A stretch of 64,000 bases of DNA from Candidatus Kapaibacterium sp. (lineage in GTDB: Bacteria > Bacteroidota > Ignavibacteria > Kapaibacteriales > HRBIN21), in the NCBI GenBank assembly GCA_025059875.1, contig JANXCT010000004.1, positions 1 through 64,000 on the forward strand, given 5' to 3'. Below are positions 31,559 to 47,929 of this stretch, piece by piece (position 1 is the first letter of the stretch; each line of letters opens with the position of its first letter). A program made the translations under genes and the position numbers. The notes under the pieces are model-generated. The model did not search any database. It saw only the letters and a program-made list of their open reading frames with translations, and was not told the origin of the DNA.

Positions 31559-33008
31559 GATTGAGCTCTTCAACACCCTCTCCCGCCAGCTCGAGCCCTT
31601 TGAGCCACTCCAACCGGGCGTAGTGCGAATGTACACGTGTGGTCCTACAGTCTACGACTACGCCCACATTGGGAACATGCGGGCTTTCCTCTGCGCCGAC
31701 CTCCTCCAGCGGGTGCTGCGTGTCGTCGGAGGCTACGAAGTCCGGTGGGTGATGAACATCACCGACATCGACGACAAGACCATCCGCGGGAGCACCCCGG
31801 GCAGTCCCTCTTGGCTCCCGGAGATGGGAGAGCAGACAGACGACCCCCACGAGAACCTACGCCGATACACGAGCTTCTACGAACAGGCCTTCCTGGAGGA
31901 CATCGAGCGGCTTCGTATCCGACGCAGCGACCTCTTCGCCATGCCGAGAGCCACCGATTACATCGCTCCCATGCAGGACCTAGTGCGCCGCATCGTAGAG
32001 CATGGCTTCGGATATATCGCCGGCGGGAGCGTCTACTTCGACCTCTCGGCTTGGCGGCGAGTTGCTCAATACGGGCGCCTCTTCACTGTGGACCCTGAGG
32101 CCATCAAGCCTGGTGCGCGCATTGACGTAGACCAGTACGAGCGCGATGAGGTCAGCGACTTCGTGCTCTGGAAAGGCCGCAAGCCGGGAGAGCCATACTG
32201 GGAGTTTGGACTCCACGGCCATTCCCTCCCTGGGCGCCCCGGATGGCACTTAGAGTGCTCCGTCATGGAGCACGAGCTCTTGGGACTCCCGTTTGATATC
32301 CACACCGGCGGCATAGACCTACGCTTCCCCCACCACGAGAACGAAATTGCTCAAAGCATGGCCGGTTACGGTGTGGACCCCACCCGCTTCTGGGTCCACA
32401 ACGAGTTCTTGGAGGTAGAGGGCCAGAAGATGAGCAAATCGCTAGGCAACTTCTACACCCTCCGCGATCTGCTCTCTCGCGGGATCGATCCGCTGGACGT
32501 GCGCTTTGCGATGTTAGGAGCACACTACCGCTCCCCCTTCAACTTCACCTTCCCCGGCATAGAAGCCGCCCGCCGAGCTCGAGAGCGCGTCCAGGAGTAC
32601 ATCTACGCCTTGCACGACGAGCCAGCGGCTGCCGATGGGATGACGGTGAACACCGCCGCCGTCCGAGAGAGCGTCTTCTGCCACCTGGCCAACGACCTCC
32701 ATACTCCAAAAGCCTTCGCTGAGTTCTTCAGCTTCATCAATGCCACTCCACCCAGTGCCCTCTCTGCAGAGAGTCGTCGTGAGGTCCTGCATTTCCTCTC
32801 GGAGTTCAACCTGATCGTGGACGTCTGGGATATCGCGCCTCGACCGCAGGAGGAAATCCCAGAAGAGATCCGCCGGCTGGCAGAGCTGCGATGGCAGTTG
32901 CGGCTCCAGCGCCGGTACGCCGAGTCCGATGCCATCCGAGAGCAAATCCAGCGGGCTGGCTACACGATCAAAGACCTGCGCGACGGGTACGTGATTGAGC
33001 GGCGATGA
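31551..33008 (+). CDS. cysS: Cysteinyl-tRNA synthetase
   Basis: 485 aa from the ATG at 31551, which lies inside the end of the response-regulator gene. A longer in-frame start at 31452 lacks similarity. The zinc ligand Cys30 is in CGPTVYDYAHIGN, with the HIGH-like HIGN at 39-42; KMSKSLGN lies near 285. WHLECSVM and GIDLRFPHHENE supply the other zinc ligands and the active-site His. It charges tRNA-Cys. The stop overlaps the following DUF2520 gene by 4 bases. Confidence 0.95.
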   Translation: MLKIELFNTLSRQLEPFEPLQPGVVRMYTCGPTVYDYAHIGNMRAFLCADLLQRVLRVVGGYEVRWVMNITDIDDKTIRGSTPGSPSWLPEMGEQTDDPHENLRRYTSFYEQAFLEDIERLRIRRSDLFAMPRATDYIAPMQDLVRRIVEHGFGYIAGGSVYFDLSAWRRVAQYGRLFTVDPEAIKPGARIDVDQYERDEVSDFVLWKGRKPGEPYWEFGLHGHSLPGRPGWHLECSVMEHELLGLPFDIHTGGIDLRFPHHENEIAQSMAGYGVDPTRFWVHNEFLEVEGQKMSKSLGNFYTLRDLLSRGIDPLDVRFAMLGAHYRSPFNFTFPGIEAARRARERVQEYIYALHDEPAAADGMTVNTAAVRESVFCHLANDLHTPKAFAEFFSFINATPPSALSAESRREVLHFLSEFNLIVDVWDIAPRPQEEIPEEIRRLAELRWQLRLQRRYAESDAIREQIQRAGYTIKDLRDGYVIERR

Positions 33009-33874
33009 ACGAATTGCCTACCTGCGGCATCGTCGGCCCTGGGCGCCTAGGAACCACGTTGGCCTTAGCATTCCACCGACTCGGATGCCTCCGGTGGCTC
33101 AAGGGACGCTCTCCCCAACATGCTGTGTGGGCTCAAGCTCAAGGGATACCATACAGAGAGGGCTGGGACGACTTGCCTCCTGTGGACCTCGTTTGGTATA
33201 CCGTTCCCGACCAGGCTATCACGGCAGTCGTGGAGGAATCCATCCAAGCACTCGGCACGGAGCGTTTACAGCAGACCGCTCTCATCCACACCGCCGGCAG
33301 CTTCGGGGGAGAGGTCTTCAAAGGAGCGCCATCAGGTGTAGAATGGGGCTGCGCCCATCCCTTCCAGACCTTCCCTTGGCCGCCGCAGCCCTATCTCCTG
33401 CGCTGTGTTGGGTGGTTAGTGGAATCACCCTACCCTCGAGTGCGCCAACAGTTAACACTACTCATCCGTGTCCTGGAAGGTATCCCTGTCGTTGTTTCAT
33501 GCTTCCCCGCTGAGCATCGCACTCGCTACCACATTGCCGCTGTGGCTGCCTCCAATGTGCTCACAGCGCTCTTGCATTTCGCTTTCGACATAGCCTCCTC
33601 CGCAGGCATCCCAGCCTCTGTGTTCCTCCGCCCAATTGCGGAGGCAAGCGTCCGAAACACCTTCTCCGCGATTGGCTCCTTCCCGTTGACCGGCCCCATC
33701 ATACGCGCCGATTGGCCTACGCTCCAACGCCACCTGGAGTGCCTCCAAGGCAACGAACGGGCGGTCTACAGGAGCCTCCTCCTAGCCACTGCATCGGTGG
33801 CCCACTCCCGCGGGCTTCTCTCCGAGGAGCAATGGAACTACCTGCAGCAGCTACTTCCGCCAGAGTCCGTCTGA
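33005..33874 (+). CDS. Rossmann-like/DUF2520 domain protein
   Basis: 289 aa. The N-terminal ~150 residues form a Rossmann-type dinucleotide fold (CGIVGPGRLGTTLALAF, then LVWYTVPDQAI and ALIHTAGSFGG). The C-terminal half is the helical DUF2520 domain (SNVLTALLHFAFDIASSAGI). Family members resemble ketopantoate- or prephenate-dehydrogenase-type enzymes, but no reaction is established that I know of. It is translationally coupled to cysS. A bidirectional hairpin follows 4 bases after its stop. Confidence 0.85.
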   Translation: MNELPTCGIVGPGRLGTTLALAFHRLGCLRWLKGRSPQHAVWAQAQGIPYREGWDDLPPVDLVWYTVPDQAITAVVEESIQALGTERLQQTALIHTAGSFGGEVFKGAPSGVEWGCAHPFQTFPWPPQPYLLRCVGWLVESPYPRVRQQLTLLIRVLEGIPVVVSCFPAEHRTRYHIAAVAASNVLTALLHFAFDIASSAGIPASVFLRPIAEASVRNTFSAIGSFPLTGPIIRADWPTLQRHLECLQGNERAVYRSLLLATASVAHSRGLLSEEQWNYLQQLLPPESV

Positions 33875-33878
33875 AAAT

Positions 33879-33908
33879 CAGCACCCCACCGGCATCGGTG
33901 GGGTGCTG
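33879..33908 (-). terminator. Hairpin terminator between convergent genes
   Basis: A perfect 13-bp stem (33879-33891 with 33896-33908) with a GCAT loop. Read on the minus strand it is followed by ATTTTC, so it best ends the minus-strand repeat-protein gene. It can also serve the plus-strand DUF2520 gene. Confidence 0.8.
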
Positions 33909-33952
33909 TGCTGAATGATTCCTCCGCTTGTCTTAGCACACGGGCTCTACTA

Positions 33953-35704
33953 TCAGCGAACTACCCCGGGGGGACTGAGGGTGGGCTTATTCCGTTCCTC
34001 CCACCATTTTTTCAACCTCGCCCACCAGGAGCGGGGCCCTGTCTGCCTGGCGGTCGTCATCCAGGCGTATGTGACAGTGGTCTCATCATGAACTGGGGGA
34101 AGCTCGCAAACCGGCTCTTCCCCTTCACCAAGCTCCAGCACCAGTTCCGGCAGGGCGATGTGATCGGGAATCAGCACCCCTCCAAGTTGGACGCCATTCC
34201 CCTGTGGGAAGCAGCCAATGGGTCCCTCAGGCTCCACAACCACCGGTGGTGTAAAAGAAGGAGCCGAACGCAACCCAACAATATCTACAGGCTCGTTAAG
34301 TTTGATTCTGCCTCTCTCTATTCTCCCCCTCACCGGCGATTGACGAAGCCCCTGGCCACTCTCTCTGTCATCACGGCTGCGGGCGGAGATCTCCTTGCGG
34401 ACCTCATGGGCCCAGTTCTTCGCATAGTACCCCTGCAGCGTTATGGGCTGAGTTGTGTCCTGAGGGATGCTATAGACAAAGTAACCACTGAGGTATGGCC
34501 GACGGCGTTCCCACTCTTCCGTCCGGCTCGTGTCCTGTGGTCGTCCACCGAAGACGAAGTAGCCTCCACGGTACGGCTGACGACGCTCCCATTCCTCCGT
34601 CCGACTCGTGTCCTGTGGCCTGCCACCGTAGACAAAGTAGCCTCCACGGTAAACACCACTCACTCGGAGGGTATCGGCGGATGCACCCTGCCCAAGCAAC
34701 TGCTGGACCCTCTCCCAGCTCAACCGCTCGGGTATGCGAGCTCTCACTACATACGTCAACGTATCTGGAGCATTCTCAGGCAGTGTCACCTCGAGTTTAG
34801 CTACCCGGCCACTCAGTAGCTCTCCGTAATCCAACTCCCAGACTACCACCGGCCCTCCTGGCTTGACTGGATCGACGGCCATCGCTGGTACCGTAAACCA
34901 CTCAATCTGGCTCCGTCCCTGATTCCGTCCGTATGGCCGACCGTTCAGCAAGGCTTGCACTTGCCAGACATGCCCAGCGTAGTTCGGGTCAGTAGCGTCT
35001 ACCCCAAGCTGCTGATGGACCGGAATCTGGTAGCTCGTCGCCTGCACATCCACCTGCAGCCGAATCGGGTTACTCTGCATCGCCTGAGTTGGCGTTTGCC
35101 CTCGGTAGCGTACTTTCAGTGTTACGCGGTAGATCACACCTGGCCTTACCGGATTGCTTGGCGTCCATTGCAGCAGTGGCATCGGGAAGACCTGCGCCCC
35201 ACCAATCGGAGACAGCAACCGCGGCGGATCCGGAGACCGAACGGCAAAGTGGCGGCAGTCAGTGTTGCTCTCTACCCCAGGGCCGATCAGCTGAAGCGCC
35301 CTGATGCACAGTCGGTACTCCCCCTCAGGCAGCTCCCCAGTGGCCAGCGCCTGACTGGACAACCCCTCGTCATACTCCACTGCCTTCAGATGCACAACCT
35401 CCCGCCACTTCATCACCCGTCCCTCCCCAGGCCCTAGCGAAAACCGCGGCTGTGCCGGATGCCCATCCCGACTCCGCGCCACTACGCGGTCGTTGCGGAA
35501 GATCTGGAACGAGATCACCAAGTTGTCATACCCCCGCCGCTGGTCCGTGTTGCGCACAACGACCTGGATGAGCTGCTCGTTCTCTATCCACTCGCTCAGT
35601 CGCGGGGGCATGTTGTTGGCAAAAGGCAGCATGAGACCCACCTGAATCGTCTGCGCTGATGCTGCTGCCACCACCAGCGCCGCAAGCATCGCAACGTACC
35701 ACAT
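33953..35704 (-). CDS. Secreted protein with Fn3/Ig-like domains and 26-residue tandem repeats
   Basis: 583 aa from the ATG at 35704. The signal peptide (residues ~1-18) ends AAASAQT. Beta-rich domains follow, with a QVVVRNTDQRRGYDNLVISFQ-like region at ~45-65 and a Fn3-like RLLSPIGGAQVFPMPLLQW at ~155-175. The layout recalls TANFOR-type surface proteins of Bacteroidota, a loose comparison. Two tandem 26-residue repeats (RGGYFVYGGRPQDTSRTEEW and so on) plus a third partial copy lie near residues ~352-425. The tail is charged and ends without a clear T9SS domain; the Trp/Lys-rich RLKKWWEERN precedes the stop. Function is unknown. Its product is probably in the envelope or at the surface. Confidence 0.78.
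   Translation of the reverse strand: MWYVAMLAALVVAAASAQTIQVGLMLPFANNMPPRLSEWIENEQLIQVVVRNTDQRRGYDNLVISFQIFRNDRVVARSRDGHPAQPRFSLGPGEGRVMKWREVVHLKAVEYDEGLSSQALATGELPEGEYRLCIRALQLIGPGVESNTDCRHFAVRSPDPPRLLSPIGGAQVFPMPLLQWTPSNPVRPGVIYRVTLKVRYRGQTPTQAMQSNPIRLQVDVQATSYQIPVHQQLGVDATDPNYAGHVWQVQALLNGRPYGRNQGRSQIEWFTVPAMAVDPVKPGGPVVVWELDYGELLSGRVAKLEVTLPENAPDTLTYVVRARIPERLSWERVQQLLGQGASADTLRVSGVYRGGYFVYGGRPQDTSRTEEWERRQPYRGGYFVFGGRPQDTSRTEEWERRRPYLSGYFVYSIPQDTTQPITLQGYYAKNWAHEVRKEISARSRDDRESGQGLRQSPVRGRIERGRIKLNEPVDIVGLRSAPSFTPPVVVEPEGPIGCFPQGNGVQLGGVLIPDHIALPELVLELGEGEEPVCELPPVHDETTVTYAWMTTARQTGPRSWWARLKKWWEERNKPTLSPPGVVR
34493..34648 (-). repeat. Two 78-bp tandem repeats within the secreted-protein gene
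   Basis: Units at 34571-34648 and 34493-34570 differ at 12 of 78 positions, of which 10 are silent and 2 change a residue (Tyr to Phe, Gln to Arg). A degenerate third start (SGYFVY) continues below 34492. Confidence 0.85.
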
Positions 35705-36020
35705 CACAACTCCACCACTGATGGTTCAACATACCGACCACACTTCCAGCCGCCTTATACTGCCGTCCCCACCACAAGGTTCCCACCTCACCCCCAGCAA
35801 GCGTCACAGGTAGCACACGGAGCTAGCATCCTGCCTAGTTTACCCTTGAGAGGCCGCCCCGCTTGCCTCGGCGTGAACTGATGCTAACCAGCCACAGCTG
35901 AACCAGGCCATCCTATAGCGAAGCAGAGCTATGCACCTGCACCAACACGCTTGATGCCCTCTCTGGCATCGCCTCTCAGTATTTTCGCTCGTGTTTCGTA
36001 ACACCATCGGAGCACCTCTC
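35705..36020 (+). other. Divergent intergenic region before dnaB
   Basis: This 316-bp gap separates the minus-strand repeat protein from dnaB. It holds a GATGCC/GGCATC inverted repeat (35953-35970) and the -7-like box at 35980. I saw no gene, RNA or further repeat in the rest. A GTG at 35991 would extend DnaB by ten residues. Confidence 0.6.
35980..35987 (+). promoter_or_regulatory. Probable -7 box TATTTTCG upstream of dnaB
   Basis: Seven of eight match to TAnnTTTG, 33 bases before the preferred dnaB ATG. A 6-bp inverted repeat with a 6-base spacer ends 9 bases upstream and could be an operator. Confidence 0.45.
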
Positions 36021-37502
36021 ATGCCACTGCAAGGTACAGAGGGGGCTGCGGATTACCCGTTGGAGAAATTCCTGCAGGCAGGGCATCGTCGGACGGCAGA
36101 GGTCATCCCGCTAGAGCGGCTCACCGAACGTGTGCCGCCGCATTCTGTGGAGGCAGAGATGGCAGTGCTGGGTGCTATGCTGCTAGACCGCTCTGCCCTT
36201 GCCAAAGGTGTAGAGTTGCTCCAGCCTGACTGCTTTTATCGAGAGGCCCATCAACTCTTGTTTGCCGCTATGGTGTCGCTGTTCGAACGTGGGGCTACCG
36301 TTGACGCCCTAACAGTAGCGGAAGAACTGCGTCGGCGAGGCCTGCTGGAACGAGTTGGAGGAACAGCCTACATCGCGGAGCTCACCCTACGGGTCCCCTC
36401 AGTGAGCGCTGTAGAGTACTACGCCCGGATTGTGCTGGAGCACTACATCAAGCGGAGCCTCATCCGCGCTGCAGCCGAAATCCTCTATGCCTGCTACGAC
36501 GACTCCACCGACGCCCTCGAAGAATTGGATCGGGCAGAGAGCGCCATTTTCGAGATTGCTGAGAAGCGGCTGCAACAGACTGCTATCCCCATGCGCTCGC
36601 TAGCCCGCACAACGTTTGAGGTGATTTCGCACCTCATGGAGCGGGGTTCGCGGCATGGTGTCACGGGTATCCCCACGGGCTACGTCCGGCTGGACGAACT
36701 CCTTGGAGGCCTGCAGCGGTCGGATTTCATCGTCATTGCAGGCCGTCCTTCGATGGGCAAGACAGCGCTAGCGCTCTCGATTGCCCGCAACGTAGCCGTG
36801 GAGTATCGGGTCCCAGTGGCCATCTTTTCACTGGAGATGTCCGCCCAGCAGCTCGCGCTGCGCCTCTTGGCGGCCGAAGCCCAGATAGACCTCCACCGGC
36901 TCCGCACCGGCCGCATTAGTCCCGAGCAGCTCTCCAAGATCGTCCAAGCCACTGGGCGCTTAGCCGATGCTCCGATCTTTGTTGACGACACCCCGATGCT
37001 GTCGCTCCTGGAGTTACGGGCGAAGTCGCGCCGGCTGAGAGCCGAGCACAACGTGCAGCTGGTGATCGTAGACTACCTCCAGCTAGTCCACCCGCCGAAG
37101 GCAGAGAGCCGCGAGCGCGAAGTGGCGCTGATTTCCCGCTCGCTGAAGATGATGGCAAAAGAGCTCAATATCCCCGTGGTAGCGCTGGCGCAGCTCAACC
37201 GTGCTGTGGAGTCACGGGCAGACAAACGCCCAATGCTGGCAGACCTACGAGAATCCGGCTCCTTGGAGCAGGATGCTGATGTCGTCATCTTCATCCACCG
37301 TCCAGAGATGTACGGCATCACGACGTACGACGACGGCACTCCAACGGAAGGCACTGCCGAGATCATCGTCGGCAAGCAGCGCAATGGCCCGGTTGGCGAG
37401 GTTCGGCTAGCCTATCTCCGAGACTTCGCCCGGTTCGAGAACCTGGCGCTCCACTACCCCGAACCGCCACCACCGCCGTACGACGCAGACACCCCGTTCT
37501 AA
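36021..37502 (+). CDS. dnaB: Replicative DNA helicase DnaB
   Basis: 493 aa from the ATG at 36021, which has GGAG 8 bases upstream. The N-terminal DnaB domain starts at PPHSVEAEMAVLGAMLLD. The RecA-like C-terminal domain carries Walker A RPSMGKTALALSIARN, and VIVDYLQL is the Walker B region. LNRAVESRADKRP and DLRESGSLEQDADVV complete the family signature. No intein is present. It unwinds DNA at the replication fork. The VWA-protein gene begins 65 bases downstream on the same strand and may be co-transcribed. Confidence 0.96.
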   Translation: MPLQGTEGAADYPLEKFLQAGHRRTAEVIPLERLTERVPPHSVEAEMAVLGAMLLDRSALAKGVELLQPDCFYREAHQLLFAAMVSLFERGATVDALTVAEELRRRGLLERVGGTAYIAELTLRVPSVSAVEYYARIVLEHYIKRSLIRAAAEILYACYDDSTDALEELDRAESAIFEIAEKRLQQTAIPMRSLARTTFEVISHLMERGSRHGVTGIPTGYVRLDELLGGLQRSDFIVIAGRPSMGKTALALSIARNVAVEYRVPVAIFSLEMSAQQLALRLLAAEAQIDLHRLRTGRISPEQLSKIVQATGRLADAPIFVDDTPMLSLLELRAKSRRLRAEHNVQLVIVDYLQLVHPPKAESREREVALISRSLKMMAKELNIPVVALAQLNRAVESRADKRPMLADLRESGSLEQDADVVIFIHRPEMYGITTYDDGTPTEGTAEIIVGKQRNGPVGEVRLAYLRDFARFENLALHYPEPPPPPYDADTPF

Positions 37503-37567
37503 GCTAGTGCACGCCCCGACAGAGGGCTTCGTCTATCTACGCCACAGGCGAAGCCGCCAAGAGCAGG

Positions 37568-39658
37568 ATGCACTTCTTGAACCCGCTCGTACTCGTTGGG
37601 CTGGTCGCAGCCCTTATCCCGTTAGTCCTGCACCTGCTAACGCTGCGCCGGCCCCGTCCTTTTGAGTTCAGCTCTGTGCGTTTCCTCAAAGAGCTGCAGC
37701 GGAGCACAGTCCACCGCCTTCGGCTGCAACAGCTCCTCCTACTGGCCGTGCGCATGGCGCTCATTGCAGCCGTCGTCTTAGCCTTCGCACGCCCGGTCAT
37801 CCCAGGAAAACTGCCACTCCTGAGCACGCAAGCACCTGCAAGCATCGTGCTCATCGTCGACAACTCCGCCAGCATGGGGATTACGGATGCTCAAGGAGAG
37901 CGCTTCCGACGGCTCCAACAGTATGCCGAGCGCCTACTCCGCTCGCTGGGGTACGAAGACGAGGTTGCCCTCCTACCGACTGTCCCTCCAGTCCAATGGC
38001 AAATGGCCGAGTGGGGAAATGCTCGGGGAGCTCTCATCGAGGCGCTCAACTCTCTCTCACCACGCCCCGAAGCTGGTGACTTGTCGGCTGCGCTCCAGCG
38101 AGCCGAGGAGCTGCTCCGCACAGCACGCCATCTGCAGCGGTTCGTCATCATCCTCAGCGACTTCCAGCGGAACCTCTTCGCAGAGCAGTCCTCCACAAGG
38201 AGGTTGCTAGAAGCCGGCATCACTGTCTACGCTGTCAATGTCGCCGCCGAGGAGGAACTTGAGCTGGGGCTCGTCGTGGACTCTGTAAGCTTAGAGACCC
38301 AGCTCCGAGCTGTTGGTGAACCAGTAGCTATCACAGCGCGGGTCTCCAATGTTGGGGCTCAACCCGCTAACGGGCTGGTCTCCCTGTTCTGGAACGGGGA
38401 GCGCGTGGCCCAGCGTCGAGTTGTCCTTCAGCCCGGGCAGTCGCAGACGGTGGTGCTCACCGGCACCCCCACTGCACCAGGCTTCGTCCATACTGCCGTT
38501 GTCGCCGAAGGTGACGTCGTCTCCGTTGGGGAACGCCGTTTCGTCGGCTTCGTGGTTCCGGAGCCGATTCGCGTCGGGCTGCTGGCCGATGGAGCAGCTT
38601 CTACCTTCCTTGAGGCAGCCCTCTCAGCCTACCCTGCCCAATCGTCGCCACTTCGGCTAGAGACGCTGTCAGCGGCCGAGCTCGCAAGTAGCGATCTAAC
38701 CCGCTTCCGAGTACTCGTCATCGCCTCCACAGCCCTGACGCCAGCCCATCTGAGCCGGCTGGAGGCTTTCATGCGAGGTGGTGGCGGGGTCGTACTCTTC
38801 GCCGCCGATGGCGGCTGGATGCAGGCTGTGGCCCCTTGGCTTGCGCAACAAGGGATGACCAAGCTTGCTCGTCGTGACTTCCTCCCAGCGCAGCCCGCAA
38901 CGATTGTGTGGGCCGACAAGCACCACCCATTTTTCAGCGGAGTCTTCGCTGGCGAAACCCGCGGGGAATTGCTCCCGGAAACCCCGAAGTTGTACCGCCT
39001 CGTCAGCACCGATGGAGGAGTTCCGCTCCTCCGCAGCTCTGCTGGAACTATCCTCGCTGAGCAACGCCTTGGTGAAGGTCATCTCATCTTCTGCGGTGTT
39101 GCTCCAGACTTAGAATGGGGCGACTTCCCGCGCAGCGGGCTCTTCCCTATGGTCGTGGTGCGCTCCGTCCTGTTAGCGGGGAGCACAGCCGTTCCGGCCT
39201 TCTTCCGCGAGACCGGGGAAAGTGTTACGCTGACACTCCCTGCCGCCCAAGGCACCGTCGCTCTCCAGGAGCCCTCGGGGACTCGCCGCTTACTGTCACC
39301 ACTCCAGCTCAGCACGGGAACTCGCCTTGAGCTTGGAGTCTTGCGGGAACCTGGGGTGTACGATCTGACAACCGACGCTACACCGCTGACCACGGTAACC
39401 GTCAACATTCCGACAGCCGAGCTCCGGTTAGAGTACGCCACCCCAGAGCAGATCCAATCCTGGTTTGAACGCCTCTTGAGCCCGGGGGTTTCCTTCCGAT
39501 ACCTGTCGTCAGCAGACGAGCTCGTGGCAGCGGGCATCCAGGGCTCAGACGCGACGGAGTTGTGGCGTTACTTCCTGGTGATAGCGCTACTTCTGGCCGC
39601 GCTGGAGCTTGTCCTCAGCTATCGGCTCACGCGCAGGAATGCTGTGCCAGAGCAGTAG
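37568..39658 (+). CDS. BatA-like N-terminal membrane protein with von Willebrand A domain
   Basis: 696 aa. The N-terminal BatA-type segment has two membrane helices (HFLNPLVLVGLVAALIPLVLH, and a second near 55-75) around RRPRPFEFSSVRFLKEL. A VWA domain begins at ~92, with the metal-binding DNSAS at 98-102. The long periplasmic part contains Ig-like strands and a glutamine-amidotransferase-like region at ~330-500 (AFMRGGGGVVLFAADGGW, HPFFSGVFAGE). A last helix (about 668-688) ends the protein. Bat proteins are poorly understood envelope or aerotolerance factors. It is not in a batBCDE set here, but overlaps a secreted WD40 gene by 20 bases. Confidence 0.87.
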   Translation: MHFLNPLVLVGLVAALIPLVLHLLTLRRPRPFEFSSVRFLKELQRSTVHRLRLQQLLLLAVRMALIAAVVLAFARPVIPGKLPLLSTQAPASIVLIVDNSASMGITDAQGERFRRLQQYAERLLRSLGYEDEVALLPTVPPVQWQMAEWGNARGALIEALNSLSPRPEAGDLSAALQRAEELLRTARHLQRFVIILSDFQRNLFAEQSSTRRLLEAGITVYAVNVAAEEELELGLVVDSVSLETQLRAVGEPVAITARVSNVGAQPANGLVSLFWNGERVAQRRVVLQPGQSQTVVLTGTPTAPGFVHTAVVAEGDVVSVGERRFVGFVVPEPIRVGLLADGAASTFLEAALSAYPAQSSPLRLETLSAAELASSDLTRFRVLVIASTALTPAHLSRLEAFMRGGGGVVLFAADGGWMQAVAPWLAQQGMTKLARRDFLPAQPATIVWADKHHPFFSGVFAGETRGELLPETPKLYRLVSTDGGVPLLRSSAGTILAEQRLGEGHLIFCGVAPDLEWGDFPRSGLFPMVVVRSVLLAGSTAVPAFFRETGESVTLTLPAAQGTVALQEPSGTRRLLSPLQLSTGTRLELGVLREPGVYDLTTDATPLTTVTVNIPTAELRLEYATPEQIQSWFERLLSPGVSFRYLSSADELVAAGIQGSDATELWRYFLVIALLLAALELVLSYRLTRRNAVPEQ

Positions 39659-41549
39659 GTGGCTCCTCGTCTTCGGGCTCGCCCTGAGTGCCGCCAGTTC
39701 TGCGGTGCCCCATGGACCACTGTGGCTGTCACCACGCCCCGGAGATACGGTCCTGATGGGACGACCTCTCGTGCTGCGATGGAACACTCGAGGCCTAGCC
39801 AACATCAGCGTATGGTACTCGCTCGACACAGGCCGCACATGGCAGCGCCTCTTTGCGGACCTACCCGCGGACAGCGTGGTCTGGCATGTACCAGCGCTGG
39901 ATACCATAGCTCTCCTCCTGCGAGCACGGGCAGAGTATGGAGCCAGTCCCACCCCAATCCGCGAGCGGCGTCAAGCGCACCAGGCTCCTATCCGCCGCCT
40001 CCGCTTCTCTCCGGATGGGACGCACTTGTTGACTACCGCTGAAGAGGGGATCGTCAAGTTGTGGAACGTTGCCACGCTGGAAGCAGCCGATGTCTTGGTA
40101 GTTGGCACCCGCACCACGGCCCTCTATGCCGCTGAATTCGTTGGTGACTCCAACCGCGTGCTCATTGCCGTTGACTCCCTCCTGCTGTTCTACAACCGAC
40201 CCACGCGAGAGCGGATTACCTTCGGTCTCGGTGGGCACCGGAAGTTCATTCGGGACCTTGCTGTCCATCCTTCAGGGCGCTATGCTGCTACGGCAGCAGA
40301 CGACTCTACGGTATGCCTCTGGGACCTCACGACGCTGCAACGCCTCGCCTGCTGGGGCGAGCCTGGGGTTCGGTCATGGTACAGCGTCGCATTCTCCCCT
40401 GACGGAAGGCTGCTGGCTTACGGCGGTGATAACGGCATCATCTACGTACGCCCGTGGCAGCAACTATGGCAACCACCACTGCTCCTACGACAACATGGGG
40501 ACTCTGGAACCAATGCAGTCATCTGGGCCCTCTGCTTCGGCACAGAAGAAAGGCTGCTCATCTCGGGTGGGGTTGATCGGACAGTCCGCTTTTGGAACCC
40601 CCACACTGGCCAAGAGTTGGCCCGCGGTAGCACACACACTTTCCACGTCCGTTCCGTGCGTTCACTCCCCTGGGGTCGGCGCGTTGCCTCCGGCTCGCTA
40701 GACAGTACCCTCCGCCAATGGACGCCTACAGGAACCCAGCTTGGCCGCCCACTCTTCCACGGTGGACAAGTCCTCTCGGTGGACTACTCCCCGGACGGTC
40801 GGCTGCTGGCTTCTGCAGGGAGGGATTCCGCCATCCGAATCTGGGAAAGTGGGACCGCTCAGAGCCGAGAGGACACCATCAAGGTGGTGCTCAAATACCC
40901 CGTCCGGCTTCGGATCGCTCCAGTCGTTGGCACTCCAGGTTCTCTTGCGACGCTTGCAGTCCTCCACGAAGACTATGCGTGGTTGCCGCCACTCCGCAGC
41001 GATAGCTTCTCCTGCCGACTCGTGTTACGACTGCCAGCGTGGTTGGTAGAGCTCACCGGCAGAAGAGTCAGCCCCACAGCATGGGACACGGTGACTGCAG
41101 ACCTGTGGCTCCATGCTGCCGATACGCTTGCACGCCTACCTGTGCGACTCTTGCAGGGGATGCCGCCAACCGGCCCTGTCGAGCCCCTGTGGGTGGAATG
41201 GCGCGGGACCCGAGCCTTCGATGCAGAACTACACGCCGGCTTGGTGGAGGTCACAGGGCATTGCCCTGGAGCGACACCATCCCTGACCATCGCAAGACCG
41301 CTGCAGGTGCGCGTACGGTGGCAATCAGAGCGAGAACTCTCCGTTTCCATCGTAGCGGACGAAGACGGCCCCTACCACTTACATCTCATTGACGGCTTAG
41401 GGCGCGCAGTCCTCCGGCAGTCGCTGGCCCTCCGACACGGCGAACACTCTCTGAAGCTCGCCCTCCCTTCGGCAGCGCAGGGCCTCTATTGGCTCCAGCT
41501 CTCCACGCCGAGCCGCCGCTTCGTGCAACCACTGTGGGTTGGCCAATGA
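39639..41549 (+). CDS. Secreted WD40-repeat protein with T9SS-like C-terminus
   Basis: 636 aa from the ATG at 39639; a TTG ten codons upstream is less likely. A signal peptide (residues ~8-24) precedes an Ig-like lead (LSPRPGDTVLMGRPLVLRW). At least six WD40 units follow: HQAPIRRLRFSPDGTHL, HRKFIRDLAVHPSGRYA, SWYSVAFSPDGRLLA, AVIWALCFGTEERLL, HVRSVRSLPWGRRVA and GQVLSVDYSPDGRLLASAGR. Several units end in W-(N/D/E). The last ~90 residues have the shape of a T9SS type A domain (LIDGLGRAVLRQSL, AQGLYWLQLSTP). It probably displays a propeller outside the cell. The 4-base overlap with the next, cytosolic-type gene is notable. Confidence 0.85.
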   Translation: MLCQSSRWLLVFGLALSAASSAVPHGPLWLSPRPGDTVLMGRPLVLRWNTRGLANISVWYSLDTGRTWQRLFADLPADSVVWHVPALDTIALLLRARAEYGASPTPIRERRQAHQAPIRRLRFSPDGTHLLTTAEEGIVKLWNVATLEAADVLVVGTRTTALYAAEFVGDSNRVLIAVDSLLLFYNRPTRERITFGLGGHRKFIRDLAVHPSGRYAATAADDSTVCLWDLTTLQRLACWGEPGVRSWYSVAFSPDGRLLAYGGDNGIIYVRPWQQLWQPPLLLRQHGDSGTNAVIWALCFGTEERLLISGGVDRTVRFWNPHTGQELARGSTHTFHVRSVRSLPWGRRVASGSLDSTLRQWTPTGTQLGRPLFHGGQVLSVDYSPDGRLLASAGRDSAIRIWESGTAQSREDTIKVVLKYPVRLRIAPVVGTPGSLATLAVLHEDYAWLPPLRSDSFSCRLVLRLPAWLVELTGRRVSPTAWDTVTADLWLHAADTLARLPVRLLQGMPPTGPVEPLWVEWRGTRAFDAELHAGLVEVTGHCPGATPSLTIARPLQVRVRWQSERELSVSIVADEDGPYHLHLIDGLGRAVLRQSLALRHGEHSLKLALPSAAQGLYWLQLSTPSRRFVQPLWVGQ

Positions 41550-41929
41550 GTACCCTGTGGCAGGAATTCCGACGTCGCCGTACCCGGCAGAACGTAGCCG
41601 TTTTAGACACTGGTTTCATCGGCTACCGGCGCTTCCTCGCCCTCGACGGCACTGCCTACGAAGACGGAGCACTCCCTCGCACGGTCAAAGAGCTCATGGG
41701 GCTGGTTGCTTCGCTCGTCCTTCGGTGCAACGACTGCATCCTCTACCACCTGGACCAAGCGCTGCGGTGTGGTGCGACGCGGCAACAGGTCTATGAAGCG
41801 CTCAACATTGGGCTGATCGTAGGCGGGTCCATCGTCATCCCCCACCTCCGCTACGCCCTTGAAGCCTTGGAAGAATGGCAACCGGAAGAAGAGCCCACCG
41901 ATGCAGCCCATCCCTCACCCGGAAGTTGA
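41546..41929 (+). CDS. AhpD/carboxymuconolactone decarboxylase-like protein with CxxC
   Basis: 127 aa from the ATG that overlaps the WD40 gene's stop. The small all-helical fold is recognisable from ALPRTVKELMGLVASLVLRC and the active-site CNDC at 61-64 with His68. This is the CxxC...H arrangement of AhpD-like peroxidase partners. No signal peptide is seen, so it is presumably cytoplasmic with disulfide-reductase or hydroperoxide-related activity. GATRQQVYEALNIGLIVGGS is the usual following helix. No AhpC or Prx gene is nearby. It overlaps the next gene by 29 bases. Confidence 0.87.
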   Translation: MSTLWQEFRRRRTRQNVAVLDTGFIGYRRFLALDGTAYEDGALPRTVKELMGLVASLVLRCNDCILYHLDQALRCGATRQQVYEALNIGLIVGGSIVIPHLRYALEALEEWQPEEEPTDAAHPSPGS

Positions 41930-42749
41930 GCACTTGCGACGCCGCTGCCAAGAGCTCCGACAGGCTCTCCAGCAGACCTTGCACGAGTGGTTCCACCTCC
42001 GACATGAGCTCTACCCCAAGCTGCTTGCTGACTACGAGCGTCTCTTCCGTGACCTGGAACTGCAACTGCAGCACACCTCGCTGAAAGCCGCCCAAATGCG
42101 GCGCCGTGCTGAGCTTCTAATCGTCAAGCTTCAAAGAGGGGAGGCCATCACGGAGCAGACGTTTGCTCTCGTGGAGCGCATTGTCGAGCGGGAGTTCGCC
42201 CAGCTATGGGAGCACCTCCAGTCGGCTACAAGTCCACAGCCCAGTCCTCCTTCAACAGAGCCCGACGACTTCCCGAAGCTCTACCGCATCTTGGCCAAGC
42301 GCCTCCATCCGGACGCGGTGGGGGGAGAGACCGAAGAGTTTCGCCGCTACTGGAACATCCTTCAGCGCGCCTACCAAGAACGCAACGTCCAGCAGCTCCA
42401 GCAGCTCTACTCCCTCCTCTGTGGCGAAAGCGAAGCGGACTCTATCCCCGACGACGACATAGACGCTCTGCGCTGTCTCGTACGCCAGTTGGAGCAGCGA
42501 CTTGCAGCCGAGCAACGTCGCTTGGAGCGCCTCCGCAACGACGAGCCCTTCTGCCTGCCTCTCTACGACCCTACTTGGGTCGCGCGGCGCCGACGGGAAC
42601 TTGAGGAAGAAATCCGCCAACGCCAGCGACAGATTGACTACTACGCTGGCCTCATCAACCGCATCCGCTCACGCACCCTCACCGCCGAAGACCTCCAAGA
42701 CCCCGAACTGCTGGAGCACATTGCCGAGCAGACCTACAGGCGGCGTTAA
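41901..42749 (+). CDS. Coiled-coil protein with J-domain-like HPD motif
   Basis: 282 aa from the ATG at 41901. Long N-terminal helices (residues ~10-100, heptad-like, e.g. HLRRRCQELRQALQQTLHEW) lead to a J-domain-like core: FPKLYRILAKRLHPDAVGG, with HPD at about residues 139-141, then EEFRRYWNILQRAYQ. A second coiled coil rich in Arg, Gln and Glu fills the C-terminus. J domains stimulate Hsp70; here the usual first J helix is not obvious, so the domain may be partial. No dnaK is nearby. It ends 4 bases inside the convergent oxidoreductase gene. Confidence 0.75.
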   Translation: MQPIPHPEVEHLRRRCQELRQALQQTLHEWFHLRHELYPKLLADYERLFRDLELQLQHTSLKAAQMRRRAELLIVKLQRGEAITEQTFALVERIVEREFAQLWEHLQSATSPQPSPPSTEPDDFPKLYRILAKRLHPDAVGGETEEFRRYWNILQRAYQERNVQQLQQLYSLLCGESEADSIPDDDIDALRCLVRQLEQRLAAEQRRLERLRNDEPFCLPLYDPTWVARRRRELEEEIRQRQRQIDYYAGLINRIRSRTLTAEDLQDPELLEHIAEQTYRRR

Positions 42750-43747
42750 GCCTCGGCAATCTGCACGACAACCTTGCCCATATGCTCTTCTGACCGCAGC
42801 CGGTCAAAAGCCTGCAGTACCTGCTCGAACGGGAAGACGGTGTCCACCACCGGAACAATGCGGTACTCCTCCACGAACCGAAGCATTGCTGCAAACTCCT
42901 CATCTGTCCCCATCGTGCTCCCCACGATATGAAGCTGGCGCCAGAAGAGGCGGTGCAAATTGAACTCTGGCACCGCACCAAGCGTAGCACCGTAGACGAC
43001 AATCCTACCGCCAGGAGCCGCCAGGCCAAGCAGAGCGTTGAATGGGGCCCCTCCCGCACTGTCTACGATGAGGTCAAACTCACCATCAGCCAGCTCACGA
43101 AGGAGGCGCTCCCACTCAGGATGGGCATAACACACTCCCCCGACAGCACCGAGTACCTGTGCACGCTCAACCTTCTCCGACCGCCCCGAAGTCACGAATA
43201 CGCGGGCTCCGGCTGCCACAGCGAACTGAAGCGCTATGACCGCAACCCCGCCGCCGACCCCAGTGATGAGCACCTTCTGCCCACTCTGGAGCTGTCCCTG
43301 CGTGAAGAGTGCACGATACGCTGTCAGACCTGCTAACGGCAGGGCAGCGGCCTCAATCGGGGAAAGATGGGCTGGCTTCTCATGGAGCCGATCTACTGGC
43401 ACACAGACGCACTCCGCCAACGTCCCGGCCCGTGGCATGCCCAAAATCTGGTAGTCCCGTCCCTGCGCTCGCGGGTCCGAACCCCAGCCTAGGCTGGGAT
43501 TGATGACGACAGTCTTGCCTACCCAACTGCGGTGCTCCTCCGAGCCCACGGCTTCCACCACGCCGCAGCCGTCTGAGCCCAAGATTGCGGGATACTGAAT
43601 CCGAGCGTAGCGCCCCTGCCGGATCCACTCATCACGGCGATTCAGAGCTGCAGCCAGTAGCCGCACCCGCGCCTCCCCTGGGGTTACAGCGGGATCTTCT
43701 ACCTGCTCCACCTCAAAGCTGTCCTCACGGAGGACAAGCGCTCGCAT
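42746..43747 (-). CDS. Zinc-type alcohol dehydrogenase/quinone oxidoreductase family protein
   Basis: 333 aa, an MDR-superfamily enzyme. The N-terminal GroES-like domain has NRRDEWIRQGRY and the conserved ILGSDGCGVVEAVG. The nucleotide-binding domain shows ITGVGGGVAVIALQFA and EKVERAQVLGA. The usual catalytic Cys/His zinc pair is not clearly present and no structural four-Cys zinc loop is seen, which points to the quinone-oxidoreductase side of the family. It probably uses NADPH. The substrate is unknown. It is convergent with, and overlaps by 4 bases, the J-domain gene. Confidence 0.85.
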   Translation of the reverse strand: MRALVLREDSFEVEQVEDPAVTPGEARVRLLAAALNRRDEWIRQGRYARIQYPAILGSDGCGVVEAVGSEEHRSWVGKTVVINPSLGWGSDPRAQGRDYQILGMPRAGTLAECVCVPVDRLHEKPAHLSPIEAAALPLAGLTAYRALFTQGQLQSGQKVLITGVGGGVAVIALQFAVAAGARVFVTSGRSEKVERAQVLGAVGGVCYAHPEWERLLRELADGEFDLIVDSAGGAPFNALLGLAAPGGRIVVYGATLGAVPEFNLHRLFWRQLHIVGSTMGTDEEFAAMLRFVEEYRIVPVVDTVFPFEQVLQAFDRLRSEEHMGKVVVQIAEA

Positions 43748-43778
43748 TCTGCCCTACTGCTCTTCTAGACTAGCGGCG

Positions 43779-43786
43779 CGAAATTA
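43779..43786 (-). promoter_or_regulatory. Probable -7 box TAATTTCG
   Basis: Seven of eight match to TAnnTTTG on the minus strand, followed by CGCC. It lies 31 bases before the oxidoreductase ATG and is back to back with the plus-strand box at 43842. Confidence 0.45.
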
Positions 43787-43841
43787 GAAAAGCCCGCTGT
43801 GGCAACCCCCGACCCTGCGTAGTCTATCCGTCCCACCCTCC

Positions 43842-43849
43842 TAATTTTG
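43842..43849 (+). promoter_or_regulatory. Bacteroidota-type -7 box TAATTTTG
   Basis: Exact TAnnTTTG followed by CGCC, 39 bases before the ATG of a 55-residue ORF. It should also drive the PLP-enzyme gene that follows. Confidence 0.5.
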
Positions 43850-43888
43850 CGCCCAGTTACCACATCCCCTACGCAGTCTCTGAAAGCG

Positions 43889-44056
43889 ATGAATCAGCGT
43901 ACTGTGCGGCTACTGAACGCCTATGCTCGCTTGACTGGTCAGAGCAATCGCCAGGTCCGGCGCTGGTGGTCTCAGCTCAACTGGCGTGAGCGCACCCTCC
44001 AGCGACAATTGATCGAACGCCAGCTCCAACGAGCTGAGCGTTCGGAGCAGCGGTAG
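43889..44056 (+). CDS. Small basic protein, 55 aa, unrecognised
   Basis: The ATG at 43889 gives MNQRTVRLLNAYARLTGQSN followed by a Trp-Trp/Arg-rich middle (RRWWSQLNWRERTLQRQ) and a helical Arg/Gln-rich tail. It is strongly basic and probably all-helical. It has a promoter box at the same distance as other genes here and ends 4 bases before the next gene, so I take it as real. It could bind nucleic acid or a ribosomal partner, but no motif shows this. Confidence 0.6.
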   Translation: MNQRTVRLLNAYARLTGQSNRQVRRWWSQLNWRERTLQRQLIERQLQRAERSEQR

Positions 44057-44060
44057 CGAG

Positions 44061-45200
44061 ATGCGCTGTGAGGAGCTCCCAACGCCAGCACTCCTCCTTG
44101 ATTACTCGCGCCTCTTGCAGAACCTCCAGCGGATGCAGGAACGAGCCCGGCAGTGGGGAGTTGCTCTGCGGCCCCACGCCAAGACCCATAAGTGCGCCGA
44201 GATTGCTCAGCTCCAATGCCAACTCGGTGCCTGTGGCATTACGGTTGCGACACTCGCAGAGGCACGTTTCTTCGCAGATGCCGGCATAGAGGACATCACC
44301 TGGGCCTTTCCACTACCACTCTGGGCTATAGAGCCAGCGCTTGAGCTGGCCTCCCGCTGCTGCCTCCGCCTCCTGGTAGATAGCAAAGCAGTAGCTGAAG
44401 CACTGGCTAGTGCCTGTATGCGCCGAGGCCAGCGCATCCACGCCTGGTTGGAGATCGACTGCGGTGGACGCCGCTCTGGCTTCCTTCCAAACTCCCCAGC
44501 GCTAATGGAGACTGCTAGATTCGTGGTTGACTCGCCATGGCTCATCTTCGACGGACTCCTCACCCATGCCGGACATGCTTACCGGGCTAGCTCCGCCGAA
44601 GAGCTCCGACGGATCGCTCTGCAAGAGCAAGAGACCATGGCTGAAGTTGCCAACTGGCTTCGCACCGCCGGCATCGAAGTGCCCGGGCTCAGCATCGGCT
44701 CTACGCCAACCGTGATGGCTGCTACAAGCCTCCTTCCGGACATCACAGAGATCCGGCCCGGCAACTACGTCTTCTACGACTACACCCAGGTCCTGCTGGG
44801 GAGCTGCACGCTGCAGGATTGCGCGCTGACAGTACTAGCAACGGTCGTCTCACACCAAACTGGTGCCACCCACTTCGTGATCGACGCCGGCGCATTAGCT
44901 CTATCGTTGGACCCCGGCCCCCAACACCTCATGCCTTCACCCTCCTACGGACTCATCGTGCACGAACTGGATGGCACCCTCATACCTGAACCCCAGCTTT
45001 GCATCGCCCGGCTAAGCCAAGAACATGGAGTCGTTGTCGCTAAGCATCCCAACTACCTCCATGAGCGCTACCCGGTTGGGAGCCGTGTGCGGATTGTGGA
45101 GAATCATTCGTGCCTGACAGCAGCCCTCCACGACCACTATTGGATTTGCGACGCCGGTTCTGTCGTCGCGCAGTGGAAGATTGCTCGCCAGCGCAGTTGA
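44061..45200 (+). CDS. D-threonine aldolase/D-serine dehydratase-like PLP enzyme
   Basis: 379 aa. It has an alanine-racemase-like N-terminal barrel, with the PLP Lys41 in PHAKTHKC, and the C-terminal D-serine dehydratase-like domain. In that domain NHSCLTAALHDHYWIC holds the expected metal-binding His and the conserved aromatic end. This fold III family contains D-threonine aldolases and DSD1-type D-serine ammonia-lyases; the two cannot be told apart here. It acts on D-3-hydroxy amino acids in the cytoplasm. The gene follows the small ORF by 4 bases and ends just before a 9-bp inverted repeat. Confidence 0.87.
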   Translation: MRCEELPTPALLLDYSRLLQNLQRMQERARQWGVALRPHAKTHKCAEIAQLQCQLGACGITVATLAEARFFADAGIEDITWAFPLPLWAIEPALELASRCCLRLLVDSKAVAEALASACMRRGQRIHAWLEIDCGGRRSGFLPNSPALMETARFVVDSPWLIFDGLLTHAGHAYRASSAEELRRIALQEQETMAEVANWLRTAGIEVPGLSIGSTPTVMAATSLLPDITEIRPGNYVFYDYTQVLLGSCTLQDCALTVLATVVSHQTGATHFVIDAGALALSLDPGPQHLMPSPSYGLIVHELDGTLIPEPQLCIARLSQEHGVVVAKHPNYLHERYPVGSRVRIVENHSCLTAALHDHYWICDAGSVVAQWKIARQRS

Positions 45201-46186: not shown

Positions 46187-47929
46187 TCACTCCTTGGAGA
46201 CCCACTCCAGCAGGAGGCGATCACTTCCGTCCAGCCGCATTCCCCTTACTGCAGGCTGGACGAGCCGAACGAGGCGTGGGTAGTAGAGGAAGACCCACGG
46301 TGCTTCCTCGAGGACGATGCGCTCCATCCGGCGATAGAGCTGGAAGCGCCGAGCTGTATCGGCTTCCGACAGTGCCCGCTCGTAGAGAGAATCTACCTCT
46401 GGTGAGCGGAAGCGCGTCGTGTTAGGCCCTTGCGGGGCTCGATAGGGCGAGTAGAACAGCGACAGGAAGTTCTCGGGATCCGGGTAGTCTGCAATCCAGT
46501 TCGTCCGCCAGAACATACTTCTGCCTTCCCGAACCATCGACAGATGTTGCGGGAAGTTTAGCTGGCGGAGCTCCACCCGAACTCCAAGCTCTCTGAGTTG
46601 CTGCTGGACTGCCTCGGCAACCGAGAGCGTTCGTGGATGCATCCCGAGTTGCAGTACCAGCGGCGGCAACCCTTTACCCCCCGGGTACCCAGCCGCCGCC
46701 AAGAGCTGACGAGCCCGCTCGGGATCGTACCGATAGCCAACCGTCTGCGGGGAAAAGCCTGGGAACCCTGGAGGTATCACGCCATAGTGGGCCGGCTCAG
46801 CTAAGCCGTGGAGCACGTGCCGGATGATACGCTCGCGATCTATCCCGTAGTTAAGCGCTTGGCGCAAGAGGCGAGAGCGTGCCAGTGGCGAGGTACGCCC
46901 ACCCTCTGTGGTAGTGTCGAGCATGATACCGTAGTACTCTACTGCATAGGCCGGGGCAGTCAAGAGCCGATACCGCGAGAACTCCGGCCGCAGCGTTCCT
47001 TCCGGCGTCAGTACGGCCGGCACAAGGCTCGGATCCAGGCCAGAGACCATGTCTAAGCGGCCCTGCTGGAACTCCCAGAAGGCCGTCTTCTGGTCCCGGA
47101 GGAAGCGCACCACAACGGAATCCAAGTACGGCAGCGGCCGACCTCGGTGGTCGCGCTTGAAGTAGCGCCGGTTGCGCACTAAGACGAGTCGAACATCCGG
47201 CCTCCACTCCTGCAACCGAAAGGGTCCCGTGCCCACCGGGTGGCGAAAGAAGTCCTCACCGTAGAAGCGTACAGCCTCCTCCGGTACAATCCAGCAGTAT
47301 GGAGTCGTAAGGAGTGCGAGGAAAGGCGCAAACGGGCGTTGGAGCTCAATGGAGACCGTGCTGTCGTCCAACACTCGGATACCGCGGACCCCTTCGGCAG
47401 GAACCTCTCCACGCGCAGTCTTAGCGTGGAATTCCTCTACGCCGACCACCTTTCCCCAGAAGACCCACAGTCCCGGGGAACGCGTCCGCGCATCGCAAAT
47501 TCGCTCAAACGAGAACTTCACATCCGCCGCCCGTAACCGGCGTGGCTGACCGCGAAAGCAGGGATCGTCGTGGAAGAAGACATCCGTCCGCAGAACGAAA
47601 CGCCACCGCCGTCCACTGGCATCAACGCTCCAGGAACGCGCCAGGCACGGAACAATCCGAAGAGCCGTATCCAGCTCCACCAGCCCATTGTAGAGCTGTG
47701 TCCCCACCCAGATTGCCGCCATATAGCTCATATGGGCGGGGTCCAAGGTCGTAATCCCCTCGGCCTCGTTGTAGACGAAGCTCCCCTTTCCTGGGCGCTC
47801 TGACGGACCACCACAACCCGTCAGCAGCCATCCCACCACCCAGCATGTCAAAGAACCCCCCACCCTACTGGCCATCTTCAGGGAGCGCAAAAAACGAAAT
47901 TCCTCGCACATACGAGGCCTAGTGCTCAC
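46187..47929 (-). CDS. Family 5 extracellular solute-binding lipoprotein (oligopeptide type), copy 2
   Basis: 580 aa from a GTG that overlaps the upstream stop (GTGA). ATGs at 47911 and 47875 are alternative starts; the last gives a more ordinary signal peptide. The lipobox LLTGC places the lipidated Cys at residue 39 of the long form. SBP_bac_5 hallmarks are TTLDPAHMSYMAAIWVGTQLYNGL, then FSFERI, a VGTGPFRLQEW core, and ALNYGIDRERIIRHVL. It should bind peptides or nickel-type ligands in the periplasm. The neighbouring paralogue is of equal length. No ABC permease or ATPase gene is in the window. Confidence 0.9.
   Translation of the reverse strand: MSTRPRMCEEFRFLRSLKMASRVGGSLTCWVVGWLLTGCGGPSERPGKGSFVYNEAEGITTLDPAHMSYMAAIWVGTQLYNGLVELDTALRIVPCLARSWSVDASGRRWRFVLRTDVFFHDDPCFRGQPRRLRAADVKFSFERICDARTRSPGLWVFWGKVVGVEEFHAKTARGEVPAEGVRGIRVLDDSTVSIELQRPFAPFLALLTTPYCWIVPEEAVRFYGEDFFRHPVGTGPFRLQEWRPDVRLVLVRNRRYFKRDHRGRPLPYLDSVVVRFLRDQKTAFWEFQQGRLDMVSGLDPSLVPAVLTPEGTLRPEFSRYRLLTAPAYAVEYYGIMLDTTTEGGRTSPLARSRLLRQALNYGIDRERIIRHVLHGLAEPAHYGVIPPGFPGFSPQTVGYRYDPERARQLLAAAGYPGGKGLPPLVLQLGMHPRTLSVAEAVQQQLRELGVRVELRQLNFPQHLSMVREGRSMFWRTNWIADYPDPENFLSLFYSPYRAPQGPNTTRFRSPEVDSLYERALSEADTARRFQLYRRMERIVLEEAPWVFLYYPRLVRLVQPAVRGMRLDGSDRLLLEWVSKE

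Follow-up and report, generated by a model that had tools for sequence, protein, structure and literature searches.

A four-gene string with a J-like coiled-coil protein and a BatA-type membrane VWA protein, and its variants across the Kapaibacteriales

The window considered here is a stretch of 64,000 nucleotides from Candidatus Kapaibacterium sp. (contig JANXCT010000004.1, positions 1 to 64,000), of the order Kapaibacteriales. Four frames with ATG starts, designated V, W, A and J, are all present on its plus strand between positions 37568 and 42749 (Table 1). The ATG starts chosen are the likely ones; alternative in-frame starts are also present. A sequence-only reading of the locus had described four genes overlapping by 20, 4 and 29 bases, which the frame coordinates confirm, and had judged their translation to be probably coupled. 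The overlaps recur in the window's genus. An in-frame ATG lies 17-23 bases before the V stop codon in six of six genomes, one of which (G120) has an additional in-frame ATG 8 bases before that stop; in the five genomes with A, the W-A overlap is always 4 bases and the A-J overlap always 29-32 bases. In G120, which has no A, W joins J directly with a 1-base overlap. Because the overlaps are conserved across the genus, translational coupling of V, W, A and J is supported at the level of gene arrangement. Two other parts of the window drew our attention. The minus strand carries, at 46187-49668, a tandem pair of 580-aa genes from one cluster, which overlap by 4 bases and look, by eye, like genes for extracellular solute-binding proteins; positions 33953-35707 encode a 584-aa protein in which a GGYFV-type repeat occurs twice in near-identical form and once more in part, and which gave no Pfam or NCBIfam family above cut-off.

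Table 1. Coordinates of the four-gene string, its overlaps and its flanking genes in the window
Feature	Position	Strand	Remark
dnaB replicative helicase	35991..37502	+	65 bases upstream of V; Pfam DnaB_C E 1.1e-104; used as control neighbour
V: BatA_N + VWA + CARDB membrane protein, 696 aa	37568..39658	+	Pfam/NCBIfam
V/W overlap, 20 bases	39639..39658	+	frame coordinates
W: WD40 propeller protein, 636 aa, probably exported	39639..41549	+	WD40 149.6 bits
W C-terminal Ig-like domain (predicted), residues 555-636, possible T9SS sorting domain	41301..41546	+	structure model
W/A overlap, 4 bases (ATGA)	41546..41549	+	frame coordinates
A: AhpD-like carboxymuconolactone decarboxylase family protein, 127 aa	41546..41929	+	CMD/ahpD_dom
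A/J overlap, 29 bases	41901..41929	+	frame coordinates
J: coiled-coil protein, J-like helix-HPD-helix core (predicted), 282 aa	41901..42749	+	model + HPD
zinc-type alcohol dehydrogenase-family gene, convergent	42746..43747	-	terminates string in window's genus

The view of V as a membrane protein of the VWA/BatA type is borne out by family searches: Pfam BatA scores 68.5 bits (cut-off 25.9) and VWA_2 45.1 (cut-off 27), and the NCBIfam model two_anch is above its cut-off. CARDB reaches 23.3 bits (cut-off 22.7) and a DUF4350 match is sub-threshold. The MIDAS motif reads DNSAS (37859-37873), and the DxSxS pattern is intact in 42 of 44 V proteins. Strong hydrophobic segments span residues 1-28, 51-82 and 664-688, with a weaker one at 524-546; 41 of the 44 proteins have three such segments. 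Residues 22-56 hold eight K/R against two D/E, and because this positive loop lies between the first two hydrophobic segments, the VWA part should, by the positive-inside rule, face the periplasm. A search of the PDB by sequence gave no relative of full-length V at E 0.01. Bat/MoxR aerotolerance operons exist in Bacteroidota, and V has in common with them a two-anchor BatA N-terminal domain and a VWA domain with an intact MIDAS. It is longer, however, by the CARDB and sub-threshold DUF4350 regions, and a scan of nine window genes (33005-45200) found no moxR, further bat or peroxiredoxin gene. VWA_2 also matches at six more places of the genome, so that a bat operon may lie elsewhere in it. TerY-P triads, which consist of VWA, kinase and phosphatase, likewise place a VWA protein among proteins of mixed kinds in one operon (PMC11090510); the same nine genes, however, include no kinase and no phosphatase, PP2C or other, and V is a membrane VWA protein of the BatA type.

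W had been taken for a secreted WD40 propeller of the T9SS type. The propeller part stands, with six stretches matching Pfam WD40, and W is probably exported, judging its leader by eye; a hydrophobicity scan found no strong TM segment in it. The T9SS part fared less well. No T9SS model matched the window protein (NCBIfam at E 0.1, including TIGR04183), and of five W homologues scanned, one exceeded the TIGR04183 cut-off (G142, 26.7 bits against 23), the other four not reaching it. The G142 protein is homologous to the window W across residues 41-629. The tail of the window protein is predicted to form a seven-strand sandwich (strands at 556-634, block pLDDT 63-88). A structure search with this tail gave many Ig-like matches, the top one being 2xwx (Z 10.9), in a fold that is common and not specific; 4g5a matched with Z 10.4 and rmsd 3.1 over 83 aligned residues. 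The W model was built without an alignment and its propeller is mostly below pLDDT 50, hence the tail alone is interpreted. In one homologue (G043, L083:9275-11230) an in-frame TGA interrupts the W frame; the W frames of four genomes from its genus (G144-G147) show no such interruption.

The description of A as a CxxC AhpD-like protein is upheld by Pfam CMD (54.6 bits, cut-off 23) and by NCBIfam ahpD_dom, also above cut-off. Residues E49, C61, C64 and H68 lie within 41690-41749, the E...CxxCxxxH motif is present in 14 of 14 A proteins, and the nearest solved structures are 1vke (E 7e-29) and 1p8c.

For J, the label "J-domain-like" holds in part. Its HPD (42306-42314, residues 136-138) is conserved in 91 of 92 J homologues of the order, and a profile of eight members finds DNAJB8 in the PDB at E 6.7e-8; Pfam DnaJ, on the other hand, scores 16.3 bits, below its cut-off of 27.8. 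The model of J (mean pLDDT 81.5) predicts long N-terminal helices (7-78 and 85-110), two short helices flanking the HPD (124-135 and 145-159) and long C-terminal helices (187-213 and 224-256). Foldseek returned no match to this model at E<=0.001, only coiled-coil noise. We liken J to class C (type III) J-domain co-chaperones, with which it appears to share an HPD set between two predicted helices in a coiled-coil protein; it differs in that its core falls under the Pfam cut-off, and Pfam gave no zinc-finger or DnaJ C-terminal domain match. A TYFG-R-like tail, possibly a docking peptide, closes 59 of the 92 J proteins of the order by a loose pattern; the tail of the window protein (42732-42746) is TYRRR only. 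A defence system was also considered and rejected: PADLOC found nothing for V, A or J, and for W a single match across the WD40 stretch (PDLC02919, HEAT-ARM_XIII).

How far the four genes travel together was examined in 123 genomes of the order, with adjacency defined as lying within 5 kb on the same strand; genomes within one genus are not independent. V matches occur in 119 of them, W in 57, a PorW-like gene in 118 and dnaB in 122. AhpD matches were present in 28 genomes, of which 25 were kept as A after three weak ones (27-29% identity) were dropped; J was found in 103 genomes at E<=1e-5 and kept in 92 at E<=1e-16, the rest being short generic HPD matches. The complete V-W-A-J set, which the sequence-only reading had proposed as a possible module, occurs in 5 of the 123 genomes, all of one genus, and the exact four-gene module is rejected beyond that genus; the reading itself had held that an order confined to close relatives would speak against it. 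Yet pairs of these genes keep their neighbourhood, strand and order across several families, and in this the module interpretation is partly supported. V, W and J without A form the string in 6 genomes (f1, f4), V and J with neither W nor A between them in 31 (f2, f3, f5), and A and J without V in 9 (f33, f5); there is one case each of V-A-J and W-J. V-W stands without J beside it in 5 genomes, and in three f5 genomes A and V are divergent, with no kept J. Two genomes look intermediate: G149, with V-A-J-PorW-like-kinase, and G148, where V-W and A-J-M61-PorW-like-kinase stand on separate contigs.

Measured pair by pair, V and J are adjacent in 43 of the 89 genomes with both (14/39 genera, 5 families) and not side by side on one strand in the other 46; in one genome (G209) they lie within 5 kb on opposite strands. 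The tightest association is that of A with J, adjacent in 15 of 16 genomes with both (9/10 genera, 3 families). The corresponding figures are 16 of 56 for V-W (6/28 genera, 4 families), 12 of 44 for W-J (3/24 genera, 2 families), 28 of 90 for J and the PorW-like gene (14/41 genera, 6 families) and 27 of 114 for V and the PorW-like gene (10/48 genera, 2 families). Random expectation for such adjacencies is 0.03-0.29, and 0.03-0.21 for V-J, A-J, V-W and W-J alone, calculated from rounded genome sizes in 39 cases and from a size of 3 Mb in the rest. A second J in G176, linked to HIRAN, was dropped from the adjacency counts, and the HIRAN-linked J of G163 was kept. Same-strand pairs always follow the order dnaB, V, W, A, J, PorW-like, with no reversal; the exceptions, all on opposite strands, are the three A/V pairs and the V/J pair of G209. 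The control gene dnaB has V as a neighbour at 5 kb or less in 6 of 118 genomes, and each of the six belongs to the window's genus.

The surroundings of J were also listed without bias in 92 genomes, with identities taken from representative proteins. V lies upstream of J in 43 of these (14 genera, 5 families), A at position -1 in 14 (8 genera, 3 families; a contig end truncates a fifteenth A), and W near J in 12. The commonest downstream neighbours are an M61 peptidase, at +1 in 28 genomes (13 genera, 6 families), and a PorW/SprE-like gene, near J in 26 (14 genera, 6 families) and at +2 in 24. Three of the latter proteins were scanned and match NF052312 at 71.7, 94.2 and 96.4 bits; one of them scores higher with the general TPR model TIGR02795 (79.9 bits, below its own cut-off). 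Because the NF052312 scores are far below the curated cut-off of 250 bits and one protein has a better TPR match, the sequence comparison justifies the label PorW/SprE-like only. The string has a consistent order, V-(W)-(A)-J-(M61 peptidase)-(PorW/SprE-like), in which A and W are optional members. V-W-A-J is better described as the genus-level form of an older, order-wide string with J as its hub. In a tree of 91 of the 92 J proteins (one short row was dropped), whose backbone is poorly supported and whose bootstrap is unsettled, the copies next to V are spread over several distinct clades (f1, f2, f3, f4 and parts of f5), a pattern that would suit an old V-J link with later losses.

These neighbours invite comparison with type IX secretion, in which PorW of Porphyromonas connects the PorK/N ring to the Sov translocon (PMC8754138). 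Points of likeness are the NF052312 matches of the J-adjacent TPR protein in other families and the TIGR04183 match of the G142 W; points of difference are that the PorW scores stay below cut-off, that the window W matches no T9SS model, and that the PorW-like gene and the string occupy different contigs in six of six genomes of the window's genus. The V-J pair stands beside M61 and PorW-like genes in family f3, and in one f3 genome (G059) a PorV/PorQ-family gene (166.5 bits, over cut-off) and a gene for a large protein with a weak T9SS-like tail lie a few genes upstream of V. In g78 and g97 genomes without a kept J, V borders directly on the PorW-like gene. The F6 gene of family f3 was considered as a PorU sortase and rejected, its only similarity being a weak one to the PorZ/PorU tail.

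The reading we favor, and hold tentatively at somewhat less than even chances, is that the string is a translationally coupled, chaperone-assisted operon supporting the envelope and type IX secretion, with J as its hub; the step from neighbourhood to mechanism is one that we infer. J would be a specialised co-chaperone, recruiting DnaK through its HPD and, on the cytosolic side, holding clients by means of its coiled coils. V, presumably an inner-membrane protein with a periplasmic VWA part, would provide a platform on the envelope side, and together the two might help envelope proteins and T9SS-bound precursors such as W to reach the outer membrane. A could act as a cytosolic thiol/peroxide partner in some lineages, and the overlapping frames would keep the products in step. 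Several observations weigh against such an operon. Adjacency alone is no proof of shared function, and V and J are separate or on opposite strands in the 46 genomes noted above. The window's own genus has its PorW-like gene elsewhere, and the PorW-like proteins scanned score far below 250 bits; a T9SS tail model fails to match the window W and four of five homologues; J has neither a Pfam-grade J domain nor a Foldseek match; and A is divergent beside V, with no kept J, in three f5 genomes.

Nearly as likely is a simple inheritance of synteny, in which an ancestral run of unrelated housekeeping genes, sharing promoters, has been eroding by loss, so that the genes share regulation and not a pathway. 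That the products belong to different compartments and that W (57/123) and A (25/123) are optional fits such a history, as does the finding that lineages keep different pieces in one order, which the erosion of an ancestral string predicts. The presence of dnaB upstream of J within 5 kb in 12 of 91 order genomes, from two genera in families f1 and f34, likewise resembles an unrelated gene caught in the string. However, the dnaB-V neighbourhood is lost outside the genus whereas V-J and A-J persist across families, and A stays next to J in 15 of 16 genomes even where V has moved away. In five f34 genomes (L154, L233, L234, L235, L240) dnaB is directly upstream of J, an arrangement that recalls the dnaB-V-W-A-J order of the window.

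It is also worth asking whether V, A and a chaperone J form an oxidative-stress or aerotolerance operon that repairs oxidised envelope proteins. The BatA N-terminal domain of V, the invariant motif of A and the tightness of the A-J pair speak for this, but the nine window genes scanned contain none of the MoxR, further bat or peroxiredoxin genes, and A is kept in only 25 of the 123 genomes; we think it distinctly unlikely.

Relatives of J outside the order keep other company. At E<=1e-8, J was found in 27 of 247 genomes of the phylum, 18 inside the order and 9 outside. In four of four loci (Tissierellia, Porphyromonas, Eggerthellaceae and Chitinophagales) J is followed by a small gene of one cluster; the Porphyromonas partner, the one scanned of the four, is a HIRAN protein (48 bits), and a profile of the four partners places such a gene beside J in 6 of 9 other phylum genomes from outside the order. 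In all, 10 of the 13 loci from outside the order (L142-L145, L197-L202) have a HIRAN-type gene after J, overlapping it or just downstream; the 13 include three low-scoring J matches without HIRAN (L203-L205). The HIRAN protein of L143 matches the PADLOC candidate models PDC-M03B (E 1e-9); a search for plasmid carriage of this J-HIRAN relative gave no match. In these pairs J comes first, and its match to the J family covers most of the profile (positions up to 4-277). The partners of J are different in the window's genus, namely V, W and A, and elsewhere in the order include M61 and PorW-like genes. HIRAN occurs in 6 of the 123 order genomes, following J in G163 (C34) and at the second J of G176 (C10); the window's genus, with six genomes, yielded none. 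Pairing with HIRAN is probably the ancestral condition of the J family, and one branch later acquired other partners. This pairing argues for a different old role of J and counts against the support operon. One could go further and imagine J as a DNA-transaction chaperone acting with DnaB, with V, W and A as bystanders. The 10 HIRAN loci and the 12 genomes with dnaB upstream of J would agree with that; the scarcity of HIRAN in the order and its absence from six of six genomes of the genus would not, and dnaB-J is confined to two genera while M61, PorW-like genes and V are commoner partners of J. We consider a role of this kind very unlikely. V has other neighbours as well: of 11 V loci fetched outside the order (L089-L099), 8 have an HflX-type GTPase gene next to V or at a distance of one gene (L089, L091-L095, L097 and L099). 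Given these HflX-neighbour loci and the scarcity of J outside the order, a V-J module spanning the phylum is not supported.

Returning to the envelope-support reading, its boldest form can be put as follows. An unnamed family of J-like co-chaperones, tied elsewhere to HIRAN, would have switched partners in one order and taken the place of hub in an envelope operon; there, J and a membrane VWA protein would jointly pass precursors bound for Sec and T9SS, the W propeller for example, on to the type IX machinery, providing a dedicated DnaK-J entry point for T9SS export. We regard this as unlikely as things stand. Whatever the role of the string may be, it defines testable sets (V-J, A-J and J-M61-PorW-like) for proteins of unknown role. 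Among the matches listed in a literature search there was no description of the V-W-A-J set or of the J-HIRAN pair, and the latter, in other phyla, deserves attention independently of the role inferred here. Should that role prove true, it would mean a dedicated chaperone step in the cytosol of T9SS bacteria and a partner for the phylum's membrane VWA proteins.
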